32,687 nt of DNA from assembly GCA_017503785.1 (NCBI GenBank), contig JAFVSK010000007.1, forward strand, positions 1 through 32,687, in the 5' to 3' direction. This DNA comes from Clostridia bacterium. Lineage in GTDB: Bacteria; Bacillota; Clostridia; Oscillospirales; Acutalibacteraceae. A program made the position numbers and the translations under genes. The notes under the pieces are model-generated. The model was not told the origin of the DNA. It worked only from the letters and a program-made list of their open reading frames with translations, and did not search any database. Within the stretch, counting starts at the first letter, position 1. The number at the start of each line of letters is the position of its first letter. Positions 1,619 to 12,550 of this stretch are shown piece by piece.

Positions 1619-1902
1619 AAAACAAAACGCCCTTGACAGACTGAATTTCTGCCAAGGACGAATAACGCTGTATCCGCGGTGCCACCTTGCTTCACGGCTG
1701 TGCCGTGCACTTTTTGGAGTACCAACATACCCCCGGCAACTAACGTATGCCTTCACGTTGCAGTATACTCTGTGCGCATGCACATTTGACTGCACCCTCT
1801 GCGGCCCATTTGACGATGGTTTCTTGCCCGATTTCCAGCACCACGGGCTCTCTGTGAAGGCTTGATCGCCGTTACTTCCGCTTCAACGGTTTGTATTAAT
1901 TT
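1619..1902 (-). promoter_or_regulatory. T-box leader (probably tRNA-Trp) with terminator, upstream of trpB
   Basis: On the minus strand the T-box core AAGGTGGCACCGCGGA (1673-1688) is followed by a terminator: the stem CCTTGGCAGA / TCTGTCAAGG (1631-1657), then GCGTTTTGTTTT. Upstream is a Stem I-like region with GAGAGCCCGTGGTGCTGG, and a candidate specifier TGG at 1806-1808 in the context AAATGGGC. The UGGC of the antiterminator bulge is complementary to GCCA, the 3' end of the tRNA-Trp gene at 12584-12659 in this window. In this class uncharged tRNA stabilises the antiterminator, so trpB should be expressed when Trp-tRNA charging is low. T-box identity is firm; the exact specifier placement is inferred. 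Confidence 0.88.
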
Positions 1903-1980: not shown

Positions 1981-3705
1981 TTATTTCAGGTCGTCACCTA
2001 AATTACAGGTGTATAGCCATTCCACGGTATCCCCCGGTGACAGGCGATATTCTCCGCAGCTTTTCAGCGTTTTTTCGCCGTTGACGGTGTAGGTCCAGCC
2101 CGAAAGATCACCGAAATCAAACTCGTAGATATTGCCGATCCCCTGCACGTACTCGGCACCTGCAGCACCGCTGGTTTCCAAATGCAACCGATTTTCGGCC
2201 GCCACCGCACGCAGCACGCTGTACACGGTGTCACCCTCGGCAATTGACACGGTTGTAGTAGGCAGCAGCACGCCGTCGTCCGGAACGTGCGCAGCACTCT
2301 TGTCGGGAATGGCATCACAACGAATAGACAGCGTGATCTCCCCTATCGTATCACCCGCATTGTCGCTGTTTTGATAATACGCATCGGTGCTTTGGATATC
2401 CAGCAGCCACACACCGCCGATCAGCACCGCAGCGATCACGAGAACGATCAGCAGATCCTTTGCTCGTTTTCGCATAAGCAGCAGCACCGTACCGACAATC
2501 GCCGCAACAGCCGCAATGGCTACCGTAGCCCAAGGCCGATAGTCATTGTGCGACGGTTCCGTTAGCGGTGCGGCGGTCGGCGCCGCCGATGAATACGTTG
2601 TAGCCACCGACGTGGCAGCCGTCGTCACGGTACTCCACGCCGTAGTTGTCGCTGAGGTCGGTGTCACCGCTGTTGTCGCAACAGGTCGTGTTGTTGTTGG
2701 TTTAGCAGTGGCTTGAATCGTTGTCGTCGGCTTGTTCACAGTTGTGGTAGGCGGCTGCGGCAGTCCTGCAGGATTACGCGCATCCAACAGATAGATCGGT
2801 GCGTTATTTTCCAGCAAACGGCGGTGAGCCACCATGGCAAAAAACACCTGCACCGTTGCGGTGGGATTGTAGGCACCGCCCAGCGTGTGAGAAAAACTGC
2901 CGTCCGACAAACGGTAACGGCAGATACCCTCCAGCAGGGTGTTGCCGTTTTTGATAAACCGCTCATCGACAAGACCGTCGACCCCCAACGCCGCCAACGC
3001 CACCAACACCTGCGCCGTGCTTTCGGGATTGGCAACACCATAGCTGGCATAATCGCCCTCGGGGTTTTGCTTCCCCGACAAAAAGACAAGCGCGCGATCG
3101 ATCGCGGCAGCTACGTCAGCGTGGCTCTTATACTGCGGTGCCAAGGCTTGTACCGCCATGGCCGTGGCATCGGTGTCGCCGTAATTGCCGGTAACAGACC
3201 AGCCGCCGTCCTCATGTTGGAGCGATAACAGCCTTTTCGTCACCGAATCCACCGTGTGCTCGGCGGCGGTATACCCATTGTTCAGCAAATGCAGGCCGAA
3301 CACCCAGCTCATCAGCCCTTGCTTGCCGATGGAATCGTTCAGCACCGTACCAATATACGGATGCGTGCTACCGCAAGCCACCAGTGTTAACGCGTATTTT
3401 TGCCGCGAAGAGGCCGCGTGCACAGTGTTCTCTGACACGTACGCCGTAAGCGCCGCTTCATAGGCAGACAGATCGTATTCCCCATACTGGCACAGCGCCA
3501 AGGCGTACCACTCCGAGGCTTCGGGCGCATCGGCGAGAGGACCATCCAGCCATTGCTGCACGGTTTTACCGCCCGATTGCTGCGCGATAATGCCGTTGAT
3601 GATCGCGTTCACCTCATCGGCAGCGCTATTATCTGCCGCTACAGACCATAGCGGCAGCAAAAAGATCAGCAGGCAAACGCCAATGGCAATAACCTTATTT
3701 CGCAT
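1981..3705 (-). CDS. Intrinsic-factor-like membrane protein: alpha/alpha domain, Thr-rich linker, two TM helices, C-terminal DUF4430
   Basis: Predicted 574 residues. A signal peptide (about 1-24, ending WSVAA) is followed at about 30-300 by helical repeats of the squalene-cyclase/prenyltransferase-like fold, with SLQHEDGGW, GDTDATAMAVQAL, NPESTAQVLVALAALG and NPTATVQVFFAM. Residues 312-385 are a Thr/Pro-rich stalk. Two TM helices (about 391-411 and 417-436) are joined by RKRAKD, and residues 455-570 are a DUF4430 domain (GDTVYSVLRA, GWTYTVNG, SPGDTVEWLYT). Human intrinsic factor and transcobalamin have the same two parts, an alpha6/alpha6 domain and a DUF4430-type beta domain, clamping cobalamin. 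Both parts should lie outside the membrane, joined by the hairpin. It is the last gene of a B12-riboswitch operon, overlapping the preceding gene by 11 nt. ATG 3705 is chosen as the start of the signal peptide; TTG 3720 is an alternative. No good ribosome binding site is seen, so translational coupling is likely. B12 binding is inferred from fold and context. Confidence 0.8.
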   Translation of the reverse strand: MRNKVIAIGVCLLIFLLPLWSVAADNSAADEVNAIINGIIAQQSGGKTVQQWLDGPLADAPEASEWYALALCQYGEYDLSAYEAALTAYVSENTVHAASSRQKYALTLVACGSTHPYIGTVLNDSIGKQGLMSWVFGLHLLNNGYTAAEHTVDSVTKRLLSLQHEDGGWSVTGNYGDTDATAMAVQALAPQYKSHADVAAAIDRALVFLSGKQNPEGDYASYGVANPESTAQVLVALAALGVDGLVDERFIKNGNTLLEGICRYRLSDGSFSHTLGGAYNPTATVQVFFAMVAHRRLLENNAPIYLLDARNPAGLPQPPTTTVNKPTTTIQATAKPTTTRPVATTAVTPTSATTTAWSTVTTAATSVATTYSSAAPTAAPLTEPSHNDYRPWATVAIAAVAAIVGTVLLLMRKRAKDLLIVLVIAAVLIGGVWLLDIQSTDAYYQNSDNAGDTIGEITLSIRCDAIPDKSAAHVPDDGVLLPTTTVSIAEGDTVYSVLRAVAAENRLHLETSGAAGAEYVQGIGNIYEFDFGDLSGWTYTVNGEKTLKSCGEYRLSPGDTVEWLYTCNLGDDLK

Positions 3706-4546
3706 CGGCTTTTCTACCAAACAAGCTCATTGCGACAAAAGCCACACCCAACACAATAACCAGCAGCGAGGCTTCCGCACCTGTTTGCGGGTTTTTTTCG
3801 GGTGACGGAGCGGTTTCTTGTTCCGGCTCTTGATTTTCGGGCTTCGCTTCTTCCTTGGCGGCCGTTACAGTTGCCACGCACACAGGCGGTACCAGCACCT
3901 GCGTAGCCGACGTGGCGCTGACGGTATGCACCCCAGCCTCCAGCGTTACGGTAACCTTACCCTCGGCATCGGTAACGAACTCGGTGGCCTTACCGTCAAC
4001 CGTGATGGTTGCACCCGCAACAGGAACCACGATCGGGCTCCAGTTTTGGTCGAAGCCTGCACCAGACAAGGTGAGGGTGACAGCCTTGCCCGCTTCGGTG
4101 GCAACGGCCGCGGCGTCGAAATACGTATACACATCGGAGAACGTGGTACCATCGGTGTACACGTAGGCGTACACGGTATCGCCATCCTTCACCGGATCGA
4201 CCAAACTCCAGGCAGAAGCATTGTTCACATAATACCCGAAATTGCCGCTGGTGTTGCCCCACAGCGTTACCATCGACACACCGTACTGCGTTTGTGCCGT
4301 GGCATAGCCGGCGGCGGCACCACCCTCATACTTTGCCTCGTGAGCGGCATACAGCACATCGTTAATGGTGAGCGCGTTATCGGCATCACAGTCGGTAACG
4401 GTAACGGTCTGCTGAATCAGCTTCAGCGCCCCTTGATCGGCAATCGTTACCGTAACCGCAGCCGAAAGCTCTTCTGCCGAAGCAACAAAGCCGAAGCAAC
4501 TGACAAGCAGCAACAGCGACAAGAGAACAACCATACCTTTTTTCAT
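3695..4546 (-). CDS. Sortase-anchored DUF4430 (transcobalamin-like) surface protein
   Basis: 283 residues with four parts: a signal peptide (MKKGMVVLLSLLLLV to about ASA-24); a DUF4430-like domain at about 30-135 (ALTINDVLYAA, GNFGYYVNNASAWSL, VKDGDTVYAYVY); a second beta domain at about 150-228 resembling an Ig-like or carboxypeptidase-regulatory fold (VAGATITVDG, TDAEGKVTVTLEAG, HTVSATS); and a Glu/Pro-rich stalk. The C-terminus is a cell-wall sorting signal, NPQTG at 252-256, then a hydrophobic helix and GRKADAK. NPxTG is a sortase-substrate variant, so the protein is likely linked to the wall. The start has GAGAGG at proper spacing. It lies 40 nt after the S-component gene inside the B12 operon. 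A role in capturing corrinoid and passing it to the transporter is inferred from context. Confidence 0.8.
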   Translation of the reverse strand: MKKGMVVLLSLLLLVSCFGFVASAEELSAAVTVTIADQGALKLIQQTVTVTDCDADNALTINDVLYAAHEAKYEGGAAAGYATAQTQYGVSMVTLWGNTSGNFGYYVNNASAWSLVDPVKDGDTVYAYVYTDGTTFSDVYTYFDAAAVATEAGKAVTLTLSGAGFDQNWSPIVVPVAGATITVDGKATEFVTDAEGKVTVTLEAGVHTVSATSATQVLVPPVCVATVTAAKEEAKPENQEPEQETAPSPEKNPQTGAEASLLVIVLGVAFVAMSLFGRKADAK

Positions 4547-4586
4547 TGTAAACGACCTCTCTTTTTATGATTTACGGCACCTGCCG

Positions 4587-5276
4587 TTAGGAAACAAATA
4601 ACCCATACTTCCGCTTAATGCGCTCCAGCTTTTCGCCAAAGGGCTTCGCCAGAAGCGCCAGGAAGATCACGTTCGACACCGCGTATTCTGCCGTAACGGG
4701 CAGTGCTGCGATCACCGAGGCGGCATAGCGTGAAAATTGAAACGCGTTATCCGCCCACAGTGTCGTCCAAACGTCCAATGTCAGCGAGTAGAGCACACCG
4801 GCCAGCGCTCCAAACACGCACAGCCACAACCGATGGCGCTGTAACGGCTTGGCCAGCAGGCCTGCCAGCAGCCCCAGTAGACCCCACGCCAGCATTTGAA
4901 ACGGTGTCCATGGGCCTTGACCGAAATACATATTGGAAACCACCGCCGACAGCGCGCCCACAATAAAGCCTGCCTCCTTGCCCAGCCACACGGCAGCGAT
5001 CACGGTGATGGCCGTAATGGGCTTAAAACCCGGCAACCACGCAAAAATCAGCCGTCCTGCGGCAGACAGCGCCACCAGCACCGCCAACACCGTAAGCTCT
5101 TTTGACGAGCTTTCGCGGCGTTCGAAGCTGTAGGTTAGCGGCAACAGCGACAGTACCACCACACAAAGCGTGATCCACAAATAATGCTTTTCGCGGAACA
5201 GCACCGCACCGCCGATCACCACCATCGGGATCAGCAGCAAAAACAGCAACAGCGTCACTATACGTTTGTGCTTCAT
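4587..5276 (-). CDS. ECF transporter S component, probably cobalamin-specific (CblT-like)
   Basis: 229 residues, nearly all hydrophobic, with about six TM segments: LLLFLLLIPMVVIGGAVLF, LWITLCVVVLSLLPL, TVLAVLVALSAAGRLIF, then AITVIAAVWLG, MLAWGLLGLLAGLLA and VIFLALLAKP. The stretch YFGQGPWTPFQMLAWG resembles predicted cobalamin S components, as I recall that family. S components bind the vitamin in the membrane and dock with EcfT plus two ATPases. The gene starts with ATGA overlapping the stop of the ATPase gene (4 nt), behind AAGGCGG. All three ECF parts are adjacent here, so the module is dedicated (group I arrangement). Cobalamin specificity rests on the B12 riboswitch and the transcobalamin-like partners; I cannot prove it from the sequence. 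Confidence 0.85.
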   Translation of the reverse strand: MKHKRIVTLLLFLLLIPMVVIGGAVLFREKHYLWITLCVVVLSLLPLTYSFERRESSSKELTVLAVLVALSAAGRLIFAWLPGFKPITAITVIAAVWLGKEAGFIVGALSAVVSNMYFGQGPWTPFQMLAWGLLGLLAGLLAKPLQRHRLWLCVFGALAGVLYSLTLDVWTTLWADNAFQFSRYAASVIAALPVTAEYAVSNVIFLALLAKPFGEKLERIKRKYGLFVS

Positions 5277-6952
5277 TTTGCCACCGCCTTTTCGCCGTTT
5301 AAGCGGCACAACGCCGCCACCTGCTCGCACAAAACCGCTCCCTCGTAATATCCGCGCGACAAACGGTTCGCCGCCGTGGTATAGAAGTTATTTTCGGCAA
5401 AGAACGCACGCGGCGTGTCAATCGACGTCATCGCGCCGTCAAACATCATGGCGCAACGATCGGCCGTGGCAGCGGCAAATTCCACGTCGTGTGTGACGGT
5501 GATCACCGTCATTTCCGCTTTCAGCTTCACCAAAAGCGCCGCCAAGGTCTGCTTGGCGTAAGCGTCGATCCCCTTGGTGGGCTCATCCAGCAACAGCACC
5601 TTCGGCTGCAGCAGCAACAGCTTGGCAAGCGCCGCCTTTTGCTGCTCACCGCCGCTGATATCGTAGGGATGCATGGCAAGCAGATGCTCAATGCCCAACA
5701 GCTGCGTGATCTGTGTAATGCGCTGTTTCGCTTCATCAGGCGTGTATTGCATGACCGTGCAGGTCTCGCGCAGGTCCTCGCCCACTGTCTTTTCCAAAAA
5801 CACGGTTTGCGGATTTTGCGGCAGCAACGCCAAGCCGTGGCGGTACAGCGCATTTCCGTGGTACTGCTCCACGCGTTTGCCGTTCAGCAGCACCTTACCG
5901 CGATAGACCTTGTGCAGCCCGGCGATCACGCTAAGCAGCGTACTCTTCCCTGCGCCGTTGCCGCCCAGCACGCACAGATGCTCGCCGCGATACACCGAAA
6001 GCGACAACCCCTTCAGCACGTCGGGAAGCTCCTTTTCGTAGCGGAACCACGCATCCTTGAGTTCCACAACACAATCGCCCTGCGGCACCGTCGGCTCCTC
6101 GGGGAGCGACGAAATGCGGTTATCGTACCGCTCCGTCACAAACGCGCGCCCCTCACGCACGGTCAGCGGCGCCTCGCCGTCGGCTTCCAACAAATGAAAC
6201 ACCCGCATGGCGGCCGGTAACGCCGCCAGCATCGGATGCGCAGGCTTGTCGGCAAAATAGGCACCGATCTTGCGCGGTGCATCGGCATACACCAGCCGCC
6301 CGCCGTCGATCAACAACACGCGGTCGGCCACGGGAAACACCTCTTCCAAGCGATGCTCCACCAGCAAGATCGTCAATCCCAGCTCGCGGTTGAGCTTTTG
6401 CAGCGTGGCAATAAAATTGGATGCCGCAATCGGGTCCAGCTGTGCCGTCGGTTCATCGAGCAACAACACCTTCGGCTGCATCACCATCACTGCCGCCAAA
6501 TTCAACAGCTGCTTCTGTCCACCCGACAGCTCGGCTGTTTTTTTGTAAAACCAATCTTCGATGCCGAAATATCCCGCCATTTCCGCCACGCGGCGACGGA
6601 TCACCGACGTATCGATCCCCAAATTTTCCAAACCAAACGCCAGCTCGTGCCACACGGTATCGGTGACGATCTGACTGTCGGGATCCTGCAGCACAAACCC
6701 AATATCGGTAGCCGCCGTGCGGCTGTCCAGCTGCGCCAGCGGCGTGCCGAGATAAGCAATGCTGCCGCTCAGCTCGCCGTAGGGCGCCACCTCGCGCTTT
6801 AACAGCTTTAACAAGGTGGATTTTCCGCAGCCCGACTCACCGCAGATCACGGCAAACTCACCCGCCTTAACGGAAAGGCTCACCTGTGTTAACGCGTCGC
6901 GCTCAGCATCGGGGTAGCGAAAACTCAAATTTTCGATCTGTAATACGTCCAC
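5273..6952 (-). CDS. ECF transporter ATPase, EcfA1-EcfA2 fused in one chain
   Basis: 559 residues with two complete ABC ATPase domains. Domain 1 has Walker A GESGCGKST (about 38-46), signature LSGGQ (142-146) and Walker B KVLLLDEP (161-168). Domain 2 has Walker A GGNGAGKST (330-338), signature ISGGEQ (432-437) and Walker B KVLLLDEP (451-458). A linker of about 60 residues joins them. The chain powers vitamin uptake by the EcfT/S-component complex. I chose GTG 6952 because AAAGGAGGG sits 7 nt upstream and the product then begins VDVLQIENLSFRYP, the usual start of a CbiO-type domain. An upstream ATG at 6994 would add 14 residues that are really EcfT coding sequence in another frame. The gene overlaps the end of ecfT by 28 nt. 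Confidence 0.92.
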   Translation of the reverse strand: MDVLQIENLSFRYPDAERDALTQVSLSVKAGEFAVICGESGCGKSTLLKLLKREVAPYGELSGSIAYLGTPLAQLDSRTAATDIGFVLQDPDSQIVTDTVWHELAFGLENLGIDTSVIRRRVAEMAGYFGIEDWFYKKTAELSGGQKQLLNLAAVMVMQPKVLLLDEPTAQLDPIAASNFIATLQKLNRELGLTILLVEHRLEEVFPVADRVLLIDGGRLVYADAPRKIGAYFADKPAHPMLAALPAAMRVFHLLEADGEAPLTVREGRAFVTERYDNRISSLPEEPTVPQGDCVVELKDAWFRYEKELPDVLKGLSLSVYRGEHLCVLGGNGAGKSTLLSVIAGLHKVYRGKVLLNGKRVEQYHGNALYRHGLALLPQNPQTVFLEKTVGEDLRETCTVMQYTPDEAKQRITQITQLLGIEHLLAMHPYDISGGEQQKAALAKLLLLQPKVLLLDEPTKGIDAYAKQTLAALLVKLKAEMTVITVTHDVEFAAATADRCAMMFDGAMTSIDTPRAFFAENNFYTTAANRLSRGYYEGAVLCEQVAALCRLNGEKAVAK

Positions 6953-7803
6953 CGTAAGCCCTCCTTTACTTCCAAAATAAACGGCAATAAGCACAGCACG
7001 GCAAACGCTGTCAACGCTGCAACGTAAGGCACCTCCGGCAACGGCGCCGCCACCGATGGATAAAACCGAAACGCTTCTCCCGAGGCCATTGCCATGAGCA
7101 GCACGGCATCAGCGGTAACGATCATGGCCGCCGTAAACGCATCGGAGCCGCGAAACGTGTACAACGAATAACAACGGCGGCCGGGCAGTCCGTAGCCGCG
7201 CGCTTTCATGGAAGCGCCGGTGTCGATCGCCTTTTCCAGCGCCCACGTAATCAGCGCCGAATACACGCGCGCTACCGCTTTCAGCTTATCGGTCCACGTG
7301 TCGGTATGATACAGCCCCATCGCCGTTTGCGCCTGCCGTATACGCACCGCCTGCGCCTTAAGCATCGGCACGAACCGCAACGCCGAGGAAACCAAAAGCG
7401 ACAGCTTCGGCGCGATTCGTCCCAGCAAGTACAACAGCTTATCCTCGCTCATGACGCTGTTGAAGCATTGAAACCAATATAACACCGCCAGCAACATCAC
7501 GCCCAAATACACACCGTATTGCAGCGCTTCGGCCGTAATGGGATTGCCGTTCAGGAAAAAGAGCGGCGTTACACCCTTGTGCGAAAACAACGGATTGGTA
7601 ACAGCCACCAGCACGAATAAGCCAACGTGCCAGCCCAAGCCGCGCACAAAGCGACGGCCGCCCTCCAGCTTTACCGCGCACAACACACCGCCCAATAACG
7701 CCAGCGCTGCTATGTAGGGATCGGCATGAAACATAGCGATCAGCAATACCGACAGAAAATACACCGCTGCAACCAACGGATGCCACGCTGAAATCTGTAT
7801 CAT
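6925..7803 (-). CDS. ECF transporter transmembrane component EcfT
   Basis: 292 residues with several TM helices and the long cytoplasmic region typical of the CbiQ/EcfT family. The coupling motif is visible as GASMKARGYGLPGRR; its ARG is the conserved ATPase-docking element. EcfT joins the S component to the ATPase pair. The chosen start, ATG 7803, overlaps the TGA of the upstream small gene (ATGA). An upstream ATG at 7863 would add 20 unlikely residues lying inside that gene. The ribosome binding site is weak (GGGTGG), so translation probably depends on coupling with the gene before it. Confidence 0.9.
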   Translation of the reverse strand: MIQISAWHPLVAAVYFLSVLLIAMFHADPYIAALALLGGVLCAVKLEGGRRFVRGLGWHVGLFVLVAVTNPLFSHKGVTPLFFLNGNPITAEALQYGVYLGVMLLAVLYWFQCFNSVMSEDKLLYLLGRIAPKLSLLVSSALRFVPMLKAQAVRIRQAQTAMGLYHTDTWTDKLKAVARVYSALITWALEKAIDTGASMKARGYGLPGRRCYSLYTFRGSDAFTAAMIVTADAVLLMAMASGEAFRFYPSVAAPLPEVPYVAALTAFAVLCLLPFILEVKEGLRWTYYRSKI

Positions 7804-7994
7804 ACTCGACCACCCGATTGGCGCGCTTCTTTCAGTCCTGCCGCCTCCAAGGCACGCGGCCATGGGCCGAGAAACGCTTTAATGCGCGAGCGAGTGACCT
7901 CGTCGTAATCGTCCTTTTTCGGCAACCGCCCCAGTTCTGCAGCCTTGTCGCGCAGCTGCGAGATCGCCCACTCTTTCTTCTGTTCCTGCGCCAT
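7800..7994 (-). CDS. Small stand-alone HNH/homing-endonuclease-associated repeat protein
   Basis: 64 residues: one copy of a helical repeat with the pattern L..KAAELGRLPKKDDYDE...IKAFLGPWPRALEAAGL. This matches the homing-endonuclease-associated repeat (HNH_repeat), a small putative DNA-binding module (consensus about LGR.P...D......S..SY.RRFGSW..AL..AGL). No nuclease domain is attached. The ATG at 7994 follows GGAGGAACTGTT, and the gene is first in the transcript, directly after the riboswitch terminator. Its stop overlaps the ecfT start (ATGA). Being first in a B12 operon and coupled to ecfT, it may be a regulator or simply a translational starter for ecfT. The true role is unknown. Confidence 0.75.
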   Translation of the reverse strand: MAQEQKKEWAISQLRDKAAELGRLPKKDDYDEVTRSRIKAFLGPWPRALEAAGLKEARQSGGRV

Positions 7995-8011
7995 AACAGT
8001 TCCTCCAAAAC

Positions 8012-8049
8012 AAAAAAATACTCTTTTGACCACCTAGGCCAAAAGAGTA
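8012..8049 (-). terminator. Riboswitch-controlled terminator of the B12 operon
   Basis: On the minus strand the stem TACTCTTTTG / CAAAAGAGTA (8019-8028 with 8040-8049) is followed by seven T. It lies between the cobalamin aptamer and the first gene, so it is the likely expression platform: cobalamin bound, transcription stops. Confidence 0.88.
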
Positions 8050-8150
8050 CAACAGATCCATTCACACCGCGTACAAGACAAGTGCCCCCGAAAGCGCGGC
8101 AAAACAAATCGGTTGCACTCTTCACACCAAAGCTGTGGTAAACCTAAATA

Positions 8151-8330
8151 CACACGGCAGGTATCCTGACTTATGAGGAAGCGGTTTCCCGCGCGAGAAC
8201 ATCCCTTCTCGGAACGGTGTGTTCCAATGGGTTCCATGCTCTCTCTGCTCAACTACAGTAATGGCGGTTGTTCCGGATTTCGACCGGATTCCCTGTTGGG
8301 CTACTCGGCAACGCCTTTCGCACCGTGCTT
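8151..8330 (-). promoter_or_regulatory. Cobalamin (AdoCbl-type) riboswitch aptamer
   Basis: On the minus strand I see the conserved pieces in order: CACGGTGCGAAAGG, then AACAGGGAATCCGGT and AATCCGGAAC, the B12-box-like CCGCCATTACTGTAG, and the closing AAGTCAGGATACCTGCCGTG. The P1 helix can form between CACGG (8323-8327) and CCGTG (8153-8157). About 100 nt of linker separate it from the terminator at 8012-8049. This sets the whole downstream operon as a corrinoid-repressed uptake system. Confidence 0.93.
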
Positions 8331-8349
8331 TGTCTATTCGGTTTTCTTC

Positions 8350-8378
8350 AGTATACTGCCTTTTTCTATAAAATGCAA
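8350..8378 (-). promoter_or_regulatory. Promoter of the cobalamin riboswitch operon
   Basis: Minus strand TTGCAT (8373-8378), 17-nt spacer, TATACT (8350-8355). Transcription would start near 8343, about 15 nt before the aptamer. Confidence 0.75.
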
Positions 8379-8452: not shown

Positions 8453-8827
8453 TCATCCTAAGTCGTCATCATCAAAGCAAATCGGTGAATCTCCCACCTG
8501 CTTTCCTGCTATGAAAAGATCAAGCAAATCAAAAAAAGCGTAAAATGCTCTTCTATCTGTGGTGGAAAAAAGGCGAATCACTCTTACCCAAGGATCGTCG
8601 GTTTTAAATTGATACTGCACATCAAAATAATCACAGACAAACTTAGAAAAATCGGAAAAAAAGTGCCTTTCTTCCGGCGAAGCCATTACTTGGTAAACCA
8701 TTCTGCAAGCAGAGTATCCATTAAGAAAAGCGTGTAACAATTCTAATGAGGGTTGTCCCAAATACAATCCCGGCCTCTCTTTTATATCTTTGAGAAGAAT
8801 TAAGAATTTGTTATCTATTGTATTCAT
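8453..8827 (-). CDS. Putative immunity-type protein, copy 1 of a tandem pair
   Basis: 124 residues starting MNTIDNKFLILLKDI; ATG 8827 has GAGG at good spacing. The N-terminal half holds KERPGLYLGQPSLELLHAFL, a pattern (RPG-Y-LG..SL..L..F..GY) seen in families of small cytosolic proteins of unknown structure. No signal peptide or TM helix is present, and the C-terminus is acidic (CFDDDDLG). It is about 90 percent identical to the product of 8920-9291. The second copy lies directly after a toxin C-terminal stub, and traces of the same stub precede this copy. That arrangement suggests an immunity protein for that toxin; the sequence gives no biochemical proof. Confidence 0.7.
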   Translation of the reverse strand: MNTIDNKFLILLKDIKERPGLYLGQPSLELLHAFLNGYSACRMVYQVMASPEERHFFSDFSKFVCDYFDVQYQFKTDDPWVRVIRLFSTTDRRAFYAFFDLLDLFIAGKQVGDSPICFDDDDLG

Positions 8828-8853
8828 AGCTAACCTCATTTTTCTTTGCTCAT

Positions 8854-8919: not shown

Positions 8920-9291
8920 TCATAAATTGTCATCATCAAAGCAAATCGGCGAATCGCCAATCTGCTTTCCGGCTATAAAAAGATCAAACAAATCAAAAAA
9001 AGCGTAAAATGCTGTTCTATCTGTGGTGGAAAAAAAGCGAATTACTTTTACCCAAGGATCATCGGTTTTAAATTGATACTGCACATCAAAATAATCACAG
9101 ACGAATTTAGAAAAATCGGAAAAAAAGTATCTCTCTTCTGGCGAGGCCATTACTTGGCAAGCTTTTCTGCAAGCAGAGTATCCGTTGAGAAAAGCATGCA
9201 ACAATTCTAATGAGGGTTGTCCCAAATACAACCCCGGCCTCTCTTTTATATCTTTAAGAAAGATCAAAAATTTGTTATCAGTTGTATCCAT
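8920..9291 (-). CDS. Putative immunity-type protein, copy 2 of a tandem pair
   Basis: 123 residues starting MDTTDNKFLIFLKDI behind AGAGGATAACT. It shares the KERPGLYLGQPSLELLHAFL block and nearly every other residue with copy 1; differences are scattered conservative changes (for example MVYQ versus KACQ, and VRVIRL versus VKVIRF). It is cytosolic with no membrane segment. The gene starts 17 nt after the stop of a toxin C-terminal stub on the same strand, which is the usual toxin-immunity order. Duplicated immunity genes are common in polymorphic toxin loci. The immunity role is inferred from position. Confidence 0.72.
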   Translation of the reverse strand: MDTTDNKFLIFLKDIKERPGLYLGQPSLELLHAFLNGYSACRKACQVMASPEERYFFSDFSKFVCDYFDVQYQFKTDDPWVKVIRFFSTTDRTAFYAFFDLFDLFIAGKQIGDSPICFDDDNL

Positions 9292-12424: not shown

Positions 12425-12549
12425 TGATATATTGCTACGCAATATGATATAATATCCGTTCCTTCATATGCCGCAGGCATATATCATCCACCGCAGGTGG
12501 ATATCATATCGAAGATATATCACCCGTTCCGGCAGGAACGGATATCATT
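12425..12549. repeat. Array of five small hairpins with about 20-nt period
   Basis: Consecutive stem-loops: ATATTGC-TAC-GCAATAT (12429), ATATGCC-GCA-GGCATAT (12466), ATCCACC-GCA-GGTGGAT (12486), ATATC-GAA-GATAT (12506) and CCGTTCC-GGCA-GGAACGG (12524). The last four start 18-20 nt apart. Most are followed by an ATCAT or ATCAC spacer (ATATATCAT, ATATCATAT, ATATATCAC, ATATCATTG). The stem sequences differ while the pairing is kept. There is no open frame. It follows the tRNA terminator on the minus strand. It is a structured noncoding element of unknown role. Confidence 0.8.
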
Positions 12550-12550
12550 G

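Follow-up and report, generated by a model that had tools for sequence, protein, structure and literature searches.

The animal cobalamin carriers transcobalamin, intrinsic factor and haptocorrin combine an alpha/alpha toroid with a DUF4430-type beta domain, which sits C-terminally in TCN proteins according to the available part of the source (PMC4350170). Bacterial relatives were predicted in 2007: the accessible text of Burroughs et al. describes surface proteins that unite a toroid with an SLBB domain, second SLBB paralogues and operons with CbiO and CbiQ, in hosts without B12 synthesis, and proposes B12 scavenging and transfer to animals (PMC1796856). Import of B12 by an energy-coupling factor (ECF) transporter is documented for ECF-CbrT of Lactobacillus delbrueckii (structure 6FNP), which takes up cobalamin and cobinamide, as stated in the portion of the report at hand (PMC5997447). 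In Bacteroidetes, BtuG and BtuH are surface proteins that bind cobamides and capture them ahead of an importer, and BtuG is a beta-propeller working with BtuB, as far as the consulted sections of these papers go (PMC6977713, PMC8941943). The subject of the present analysis is a six-gene operon in a 32,687-nucleotide stretch of a Clostridia bacterium (assembly GCA_017503785.1, contig JAFVSK010000007.1, positions 1 to 32,687; hereafter the window). Most likely it is an operon dedicated to the scavenging of corrinoids (vitamin B12-type compounds) in a Gram-positive organism that appears to need B12 and not to make it. Judged by sequence comparison and structure models, it carries a cobalamin riboswitch, a complete ECF importer with a CbrT-like S component and two predicted exported proteins with the folds of the animal B12 carriers.

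The operon lies on the minus strand and runs from 8342 to 1981. The riboswitch and a terminator-like hairpin are followed by genes for an HNH_repeat protein, EcfT, a fused double ATPase, an S component, a wall-anchored protein and a toroid-plus-DUF4430 protein, whose likely starts are inferred at 7994, 7803, 6952, 5276, 4546 and 3705. The features are as follows.

8139-8342, minus strand: cobalamin riboswitch aptamer (RF00174, 80.4 bits against a gathering score of 31.5; whole model, 1-189, covered)
8018-8050, minus strand: intrinsic-terminator-like hairpin 3′ of the aptamer (14-pair stem and T run; consensus match only)
7800-7994, minus strand: small HNH_repeat protein (PF18780, 47.6 bits; likely ATG at 7994, GGAGGA upstream)
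6925-7803, minus strand: EcfT transmembrane coupling protein (CbiQ, PF02361, 47.0 bits; likely ATG at 7803, inferred)
5273-6952, minus strand: fused double ECF ATPase (two ABC_tran stretches in one open reading frame (ORF); TIGR04520, 352.4 bits against a cut-off of 315; likely GTG at 6952, inferred)
4587-5276, minus strand: S component, CbrT-like (PF07155, 50.0 bits; PF12822, 35.6 bits; S profile reaches 6fnp_A)
3695-4546, minus strand: predicted wall-anchored surface protein with signal sequence, beta-grasp domain, immunoglobulin (Ig)-like domain and NPQTG anchor (model with a predicted local distance difference test (pLDDT) of 89.3; VIA-align)
4136-4468, minus strand: predicted transcobalamin-type beta-grasp domain of the wall protein, residues 27-137
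3854-4132, minus strand: predicted Ig-like domain of the wall protein, residues 139-231
3779-3793, minus strand: NPQTG sortase-type motif of the wall protein, residues 252-256 (sequence)
1981-3705, minus strand: protein made of toroid, leash, membrane hairpin and DUF4430 domain (PF14478; structure model; Foldseek; likely ATG at 3705)
2791-3627, minus strand: alpha/alpha toroid, residues 32-310 (model, pLDDT about 90-99 per ten-residue block)
2404-2541, minus strand: two transmembrane helices with a basic turn, residues 394-415 and 420-439 (model and sequence)
2008-2349, minus strand: DUF4430, or transcobalamin-type, beta domain, residues 458-571 (PF14478; model)

A preliminary description of this DNA had named a cobalamin riboswitch with terminator, and the RF00174 score and the hairpin agree with it, the hairpin as a consensus match of a kind found at 20 sites in a 10 kb scan against a mean of 14.0 in shuffles. 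Pfam and NCBIfam matches likewise bear out the HNH-repeat protein, EcfT, fused double ATPase and S component. The genes had been said to overlap tightly, which holds for all neighbours except the S component and the wall protein, which stand 40 bases apart. A sortase-anchored DUF4430 protein had also been proposed; its NPQTG anchor and, by structure, its fold stand, but Pfam sees no DUF4430 there and an Ig-like domain is to be added. The remaining protein, described as helical domain plus DUF4430, is supported by PF14478 and the model, with a leash and transmembrane hairpin between the two domains that had gone unmentioned.

Several traits are shared with the operons of Burroughs et al. (2007). 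An exported protein with toroid and SLBB (DUF4430-type) domain is accompanied by a second exported protein of SLBB fold, a CbiO-like ATPase and a CbiQ-like protein are present, and the host apparently lacks key B12 synthesis enzymes (one TP_methylase in an assembly that is 95.3% complete). The riboswitch, the CbrT-type S component, the membrane hairpin and the HNH-repeat protein go beyond that prediction as given in the accessible text (PMC1796856). The preliminary description knew of no characterised system of this make-up. A literature search, which covered few subscription papers, recognised among the papers listed no experimental test of such bacterial proteins, yet the functional idea had been published as a prediction, so the operon is less new than it seemed. 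As far as could be seen, this kind of operon was predicted in 2007 and has apparently not been characterised; the present additions are the riboswitch survey, the link to CbrT, the architecture of membrane hairpin and leash, and the match at the level of structure.

The same gene set recurs in many genomes. Alignment A1 (this toroid protein and seven hand-picked full-length homologues) was used to look for homologues in the genome contigs collection. Of 569 confirmed places, the best 80, those most like this operon, were surveyed. By title these are mostly gut or rumen metagenome-assembled genomes (MAGs) of Oscillospiraceae, Ruminococcus, Lachnospiraceae or Clostridia; the isolate Ruminococcus flavefaciens Y1 (L042) is among them. 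Homologues at E below 1e-5 were found for the toroid protein in all 80 loci, for EcfT in 74, for the ATPase in 72, for the wall protein and the S component in 70 each, and for the HNH_repeat protein in 27. The genes are nearly all adjacent and on one strand, and since the same set is found together in 80 loci, the arrangement goes beyond chance. L050 and L064 have the S gene immediately after that of the toroid protein, and neither EcfT nor ATPase was found in these loci; L065 has the same order, but its contig ends inside the S gene.

Broader draws give a similar picture. Within the family, 85 of 200 genomes have a toroid-protein match, the host included. Twenty split-type regions from the same family, hand-picked for contig extent and split genes, contain EcfT and ATPase in 16 cases and a same-strand upstream cobalamin-type riboswitch in 13, up to about 4 kb away. 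Across the phylum, DUF4430 occurs in 121 of 398 genomes, with an ECF component no more than 1.5 kb away in 25 of the 30 loci fetched. Fifteen of these 30 were hand-picked as regions for closer study (four odd cases and eleven others), and RF00174 lies upstream on the operon strand in 11 of them. For instance, L168 has in a row the riboswitch, a DUF4430 protein, an S component and a cobalamin adenosyltransferase.

The cargo is suggested by the S component. A profile of 39 sequences (alignment A7: this S component and 38 others, 32 from the 80 loci and 6 from other regions, with truncated or awkwardly fused ORFs omitted) was compared with all PDB chains. Its best match is 6fnp_A (E 2.7e-18, profile positions 60-228), and up to E 10 just one further chain is hit, 4hzu_S (E 4.9e-4). 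By this measure the nearest solved relative of the S component is CbrT, which has been characterised as an ECF S component for B12, and the two systems also share an EcfT and two ATPase domains. This locus differs from ECF-CbrT, as the latter is described in the available text, in its fused double ATPase encoded within the operon, its surface capture proteins, and about 60 extra residues at the N-terminus of the S component (PMC5997447). In sequence, this extension holds two hydrophobic segments. L046, L055, L117, L124, L126, L130 and L131 encode the double ATPase and S component in a single reading frame of 869-895 residues, with the S part C-terminal.

The leader points to the same cargo. 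Ten truncated loci were dropped, and the riboswitch count covers the 70 of 80 whose first gene has 300 bases or more ahead of it; a riboswitch was counted if it lay no more than 1 kb upstream of the first ORF or overlapped an over-long start of that frame. With RF00174 and two models of our own, R1 and R2, a cobalamin-type riboswitch is found at the operon start in 58 of these 70 loci, 18 of the leaders being detected by our own models only. R1 (18 sequences) and R2 (13) were trained on these loci and this operon, and 31 of the 58 loci with an own-model match belonged to neither training set; the 169.9 bits that R2 gives here are scored on one of its 13 training sequences. R1 has 59 matches in 81 sources (1.38 Mb, both strands) when E values up to 1 are admitted, all on the operon strand and all at the operon start, and in four loci also before a second HNH_repeat-EcfT block. 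In the 80 genomes RF00174 yields 68 matches at E up to 0.001, spread over 60 genomes; 8 matches score under the gathering value, and 44, in 41 genomes, sit at this operon's leader; in many genomes these scans scored only part of the candidates, so that misses are possible. In 32 loci scanned with all Rfam families at gathering threshold, no riboswitch other than B12 was found upstream of the operon, in keeping with the earlier expectation that the protein pair would not keep company with other riboswitches. The preliminary description had suggested looking for neighbourhoods of DUF4430, S component and B12 riboswitch; the riboswitch is present in the 58 loci and in the 11 phylum regions, and not in a few regions considered below.

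Other arrangements of riboswitches were seen in the survey. Two cobalamin riboswitches per operon occur in L046, L055, L067 and L075, where the wall protein and HNH_repeat-EcfT are each preceded by one, and L036 has an S-adenosylmethionine (SAM) riboswitch downstream of its toroid gene. A divergent cobalamin-clan riboswitch with an altered 3′ core precedes the operon in, for example, L042 (8859-8964), and also in L041, L044, L048, L051, L053, L057, L059, L061, L079, L081, L094 and L108, often in MAGs titled Ruminococcus. Thirteen of the 18 leaders detected by our own models only were aligned and have a conserved core in common. The two leaders tested with Rfam fall slightly short of threshold, with AdoCbl-II at 34.1 against 36.5 bits in L042 and AdoCbl at 43.2 against 50 bits in L053. 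The ligand preference of this divergent leader could be different.

The host genome (2.06 Mb in 64 contigs, with 6.07% contamination at the completeness given above) encodes enzymes that use B12. Its MetH methionine synthase combines S-methyl_trans and Pterin_bind with both B12 domains, and there is also a radical SAM protein of the B12-binding kind. TP_methylase has one match only, in an open frame of 287 residues, so there is no set of corrin-ring methyltransferases, and FecCD permease has no match in the host genome, so no BtuCD-type (BtuC) importer is evident. The genome has a single DUF4430 match and a single RF00174 match, both at this operon. The host therefore appears to use cobamides and not to make them, and among the families searched this operon would be the sole importer with evidence in the host.

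The folds of the two exported proteins connect them with B12 carriers. In the toroid protein, PF14478 scores 55.6 bits against a cut-off of 23.8, and the structure model has a pLDDT of 86.9 and a predicted template modelling score (pTM) of 0.68. Toroid and DUF4430 domain are separated by a long disordered leash (low confidence, about residues 330-390) and two transmembrane helices; in 80 of 87 homologous ORFs the hairpin region has two hydrophobic segments or one long one. When the whole chain is compared by Foldseek, the best 15 rows are all transcobalamin, intrinsic factor or haptocorrin, with transcobalamin first. The protein thus has the order found in this animal family, an alpha/alpha toroid and then a DUF4430-type beta domain. 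The soluble chain of the animal carriers, with its two domains directly joined, is absent; instead, the model suggests a membrane-bound protein with leash and helices between the domains. Very large toroid/DUF4430 surface proteins of 1597-2613 residues, with an upstream cobalamin riboswitch, are found in L117, L119, L120 and L176.

The wall protein ends in NPQTG and a hydrophobic tail, and its signal sequence and anchor were taken from the sequence, without a signal predictor. NPXTG and LPXTG models match it weakly (NCBIfam NPXTG domain, 252-274, E 0.65), and the host genome has two sortase genes. When the model is compared by VIA-align, the best structural matches of its first domain are cobalamin-carrier beta domains. 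Pfam DUF4430 has no match on the protein at E up to 1 and, at E up to 0.01, on none of the 45 sequences of alignment A6 (this protein and 44 of the 70 wall proteins, truncated or awkwardly fused ORFs being left out); the domain is assigned a DUF4430-type fold by structure comparison of the model only. The wall-protein profile finds nothing among PDB sequences up to E 5. Because a profile-profile alignment of wall and toroid proteins joined only their signal peptides, kinship between the two rests on fold.

A mechanism can be proposed from these parts. At low internal cobalamin, the riboswitch would permit transcription of the operon. Outside the cell, corrinoid would be captured by the leashed toroid and by the wall-anchored protein with its beta-grasp and Ig-like domains, and the toroid would close on the membrane-proximal beta domain, in the manner of transcobalamin, beside the S component. 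The corrinoid would then pass from this clamp to the S component, EcfT and the double ATPase would power import, and MetH would use the corrinoid. Surface capture ahead of an importer would recall BtuG and BtuH, with toroid, beta-grasp and Ig-like folds, according to the models, in place of a propeller. Corrinoid binding and hand-over to the S component are what we infer, and the clamp with its hand-over is the weakest step. A built-in extracellular clamp is posited more tentatively: the toroid/DUF4430 protein would be the constant partner of the S component, its hairpin would dock on the extra N-terminal helices of the S component, and the leashed toroid would shut over corrinoid on the membrane-proximal beta domain and feed it straight into the S component. 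We regard this arrangement as possible but rather doubtful. If true, many Bacillota would possess a transport architecture of a new kind and, with it, a living counterpart of intrinsic factor in bacteria.

To our knowledge, ECF transporters are usually described as requiring no separate binding protein. If the scavenging reading is right, ECF importers can possess dedicated capture proteins, and human B12 carriers and bacterial surface proteins have one capture architecture in common. The operon is a concrete and widely occurring candidate for Gram-positive B12 surface capture. The preliminary description had the two surface proteins trap corrinoid and hand it to the transporter. Cargo (riboswitch, CbrT-like S component, MetH), export and carrier folds speak for this, while corrinoid binding, clamp geometry and hand-over are predicted. 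Superposition on transcobalamin had been expected as well; transcobalamin ranks first for the whole chain in Foldseek and is missing from the 50 VIA-align rows, which the toroid dominates.

A number of observations weigh against corrinoid scavenging by this set of proteins. In Foldseek, terpene cyclases (E 4.1e-5) come close after haptocorrin (2.4e-5), and the root-mean-square deviation over both domains is 9-16 Å; as the domains flank leash and hairpin, the clamp is not predicted as such, and a clamp like that of intrinsic factor requires the leash to fold back. VIA-align, which is dominated by the toroid, puts terpene cyclases first and includes sugar epimerases, and among the 50 matches listed there is no transcobalamin, which does not exclude likeness. 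The sequence profile of the toroid protein found no transcobalamin, and that of the DUF4430 domain reached only chance-level PDB matches (best E 0.84, no transcobalamin). PF01122 (Cobalamin_bind), which we take to be the animal toroid family, has no match in the toroid protein at E up to 1, a further difference from the animal carriers. The substrate of the S component is not named by the family libraries: the best NCBIfam model is of a folate family (35.9 bits against a cut-off of 60), this model weakly matches 27 of the 39 S components, and the best Pfam family carries a riboflavin name. A recognisable sortase-type motif is present in only 40 of 70 wall proteins.

Further points on the same side come from the distribution of riboswitches and genes. 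Eleven of the 70 untruncated loci have no riboswitch by the models used, and 9 of these, scanned with Rfam, gave no family at all; L086 has one only before its separated wall-protein gene. As 24 of the 68 RF00174 matches lie away from this leader, some genomes have another B12-regulated locus. L166, L167 and L169 have DUF4430 and an S component with no cobalamin riboswitch in the region, L180 also has none in its region, and among 14 control genomes DUF4430 without an RF00174 match is found in Lactococcus lactis and Methanosarcina acetivorans. Two genomes of the host's genus are without a toroid-protein match. Searches of the host genome for PduO and BtuR adenosyltransferases gave nothing. The assembly is a draft and limited families were searched, so the absences on which the account of the host depends are provisional.

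Four other explanations deserve comparison with corrinoid scavenging, and the chances given to them overlap with it, for the first two use the same importer. The cargo might be a corrinoid precursor or a lower ligand (cobinamide, cobyrinate or alpha-ribazole), with the surface proteins tuned to it. CbrT, on the accessible evidence, imports cobinamide besides cobalamin (PMC5997447), and neither of the two adenosyltransferase families was found in the host. We consider this unlikely: MetH and the cobalamin riboswitch fit the use of complete cobamides, and salvage would require enzymes of the CobU/CobS/CobT type. There is also a slim chance, a shade smaller, that the ECF part imports corrinoid and the surface proteins act otherwise, on cell-wall sugars or host glycans or as adhesins. 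Beta-grasp and toroid folds bind many ligands, the VIA-align matches of the toroid and the failure of sequence profiles to reach transcobalamin count in favour of this view, and yet toroid and DUF4430 together lead to B12 carriers in the best 15 Foldseek rows, and the wall protein independently matches cobalamin-carrier beta domains. The retention of wall protein and S component in 70 of 80 loci each, and the placement of the toroid protein directly before the S component in L050 and L064, also argue against this view.

A cobalt importer of the CbiMNQO-like type under cobalamin control would explain the CbiQ match of EcfT. It is very improbable and was rejected on the CbrT-like S component and the missing set of corrin methyltransferases, because a single TP_methylase gene gives no evident need of cobalt for making corrin. 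Least probable, and barely credible in our view, is that the toroid is an enzyme related to type II terpene cyclases or prenyltransferases. Its structural Z scores with such enzymes are high, and weak Pfam SQHop_cyclase matches (E up to 0.01) occur in 64 of the 74 members of alignment A5, which comprises the toroid proteins of this operon and of 73 of the 80 loci and omits truncated or awkwardly fused ORFs. However, all 8 sequences of alignment A1 have D-x-D-[AVI]-T and not DxDD, the catalytic motif of type II terpene cyclases, the cyclase and prenyltransferase matches of this protein are under the curated cut-offs, and the domain is exported. This identity was rejected on motif and context.

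The HNH_repeat protein has a strongly conserved core and a basic tail and is encoded near the riboswitch, ahead of the transport and surface genes. It is perhaps a nucleic-acid-binding regulator, a predicted role. Outside the operon, two tandem and near-alike small proteins of 128 and 123 residues are encoded at 8453-8839 and 8920-9291 on the minus strand, with no Pfam match at E up to 0.01. Downstream of the operon, a T-box leader (1651-1895, minus strand) precedes a PALP-family gene at 309-1529, probably trpB (tryptophan synthase beta). A Gut-1 RNA (RF01706, 62.9 bits) at 12476-12550 on the minus strand adjoins genes for tRNA-Trp and tRNA-Met.

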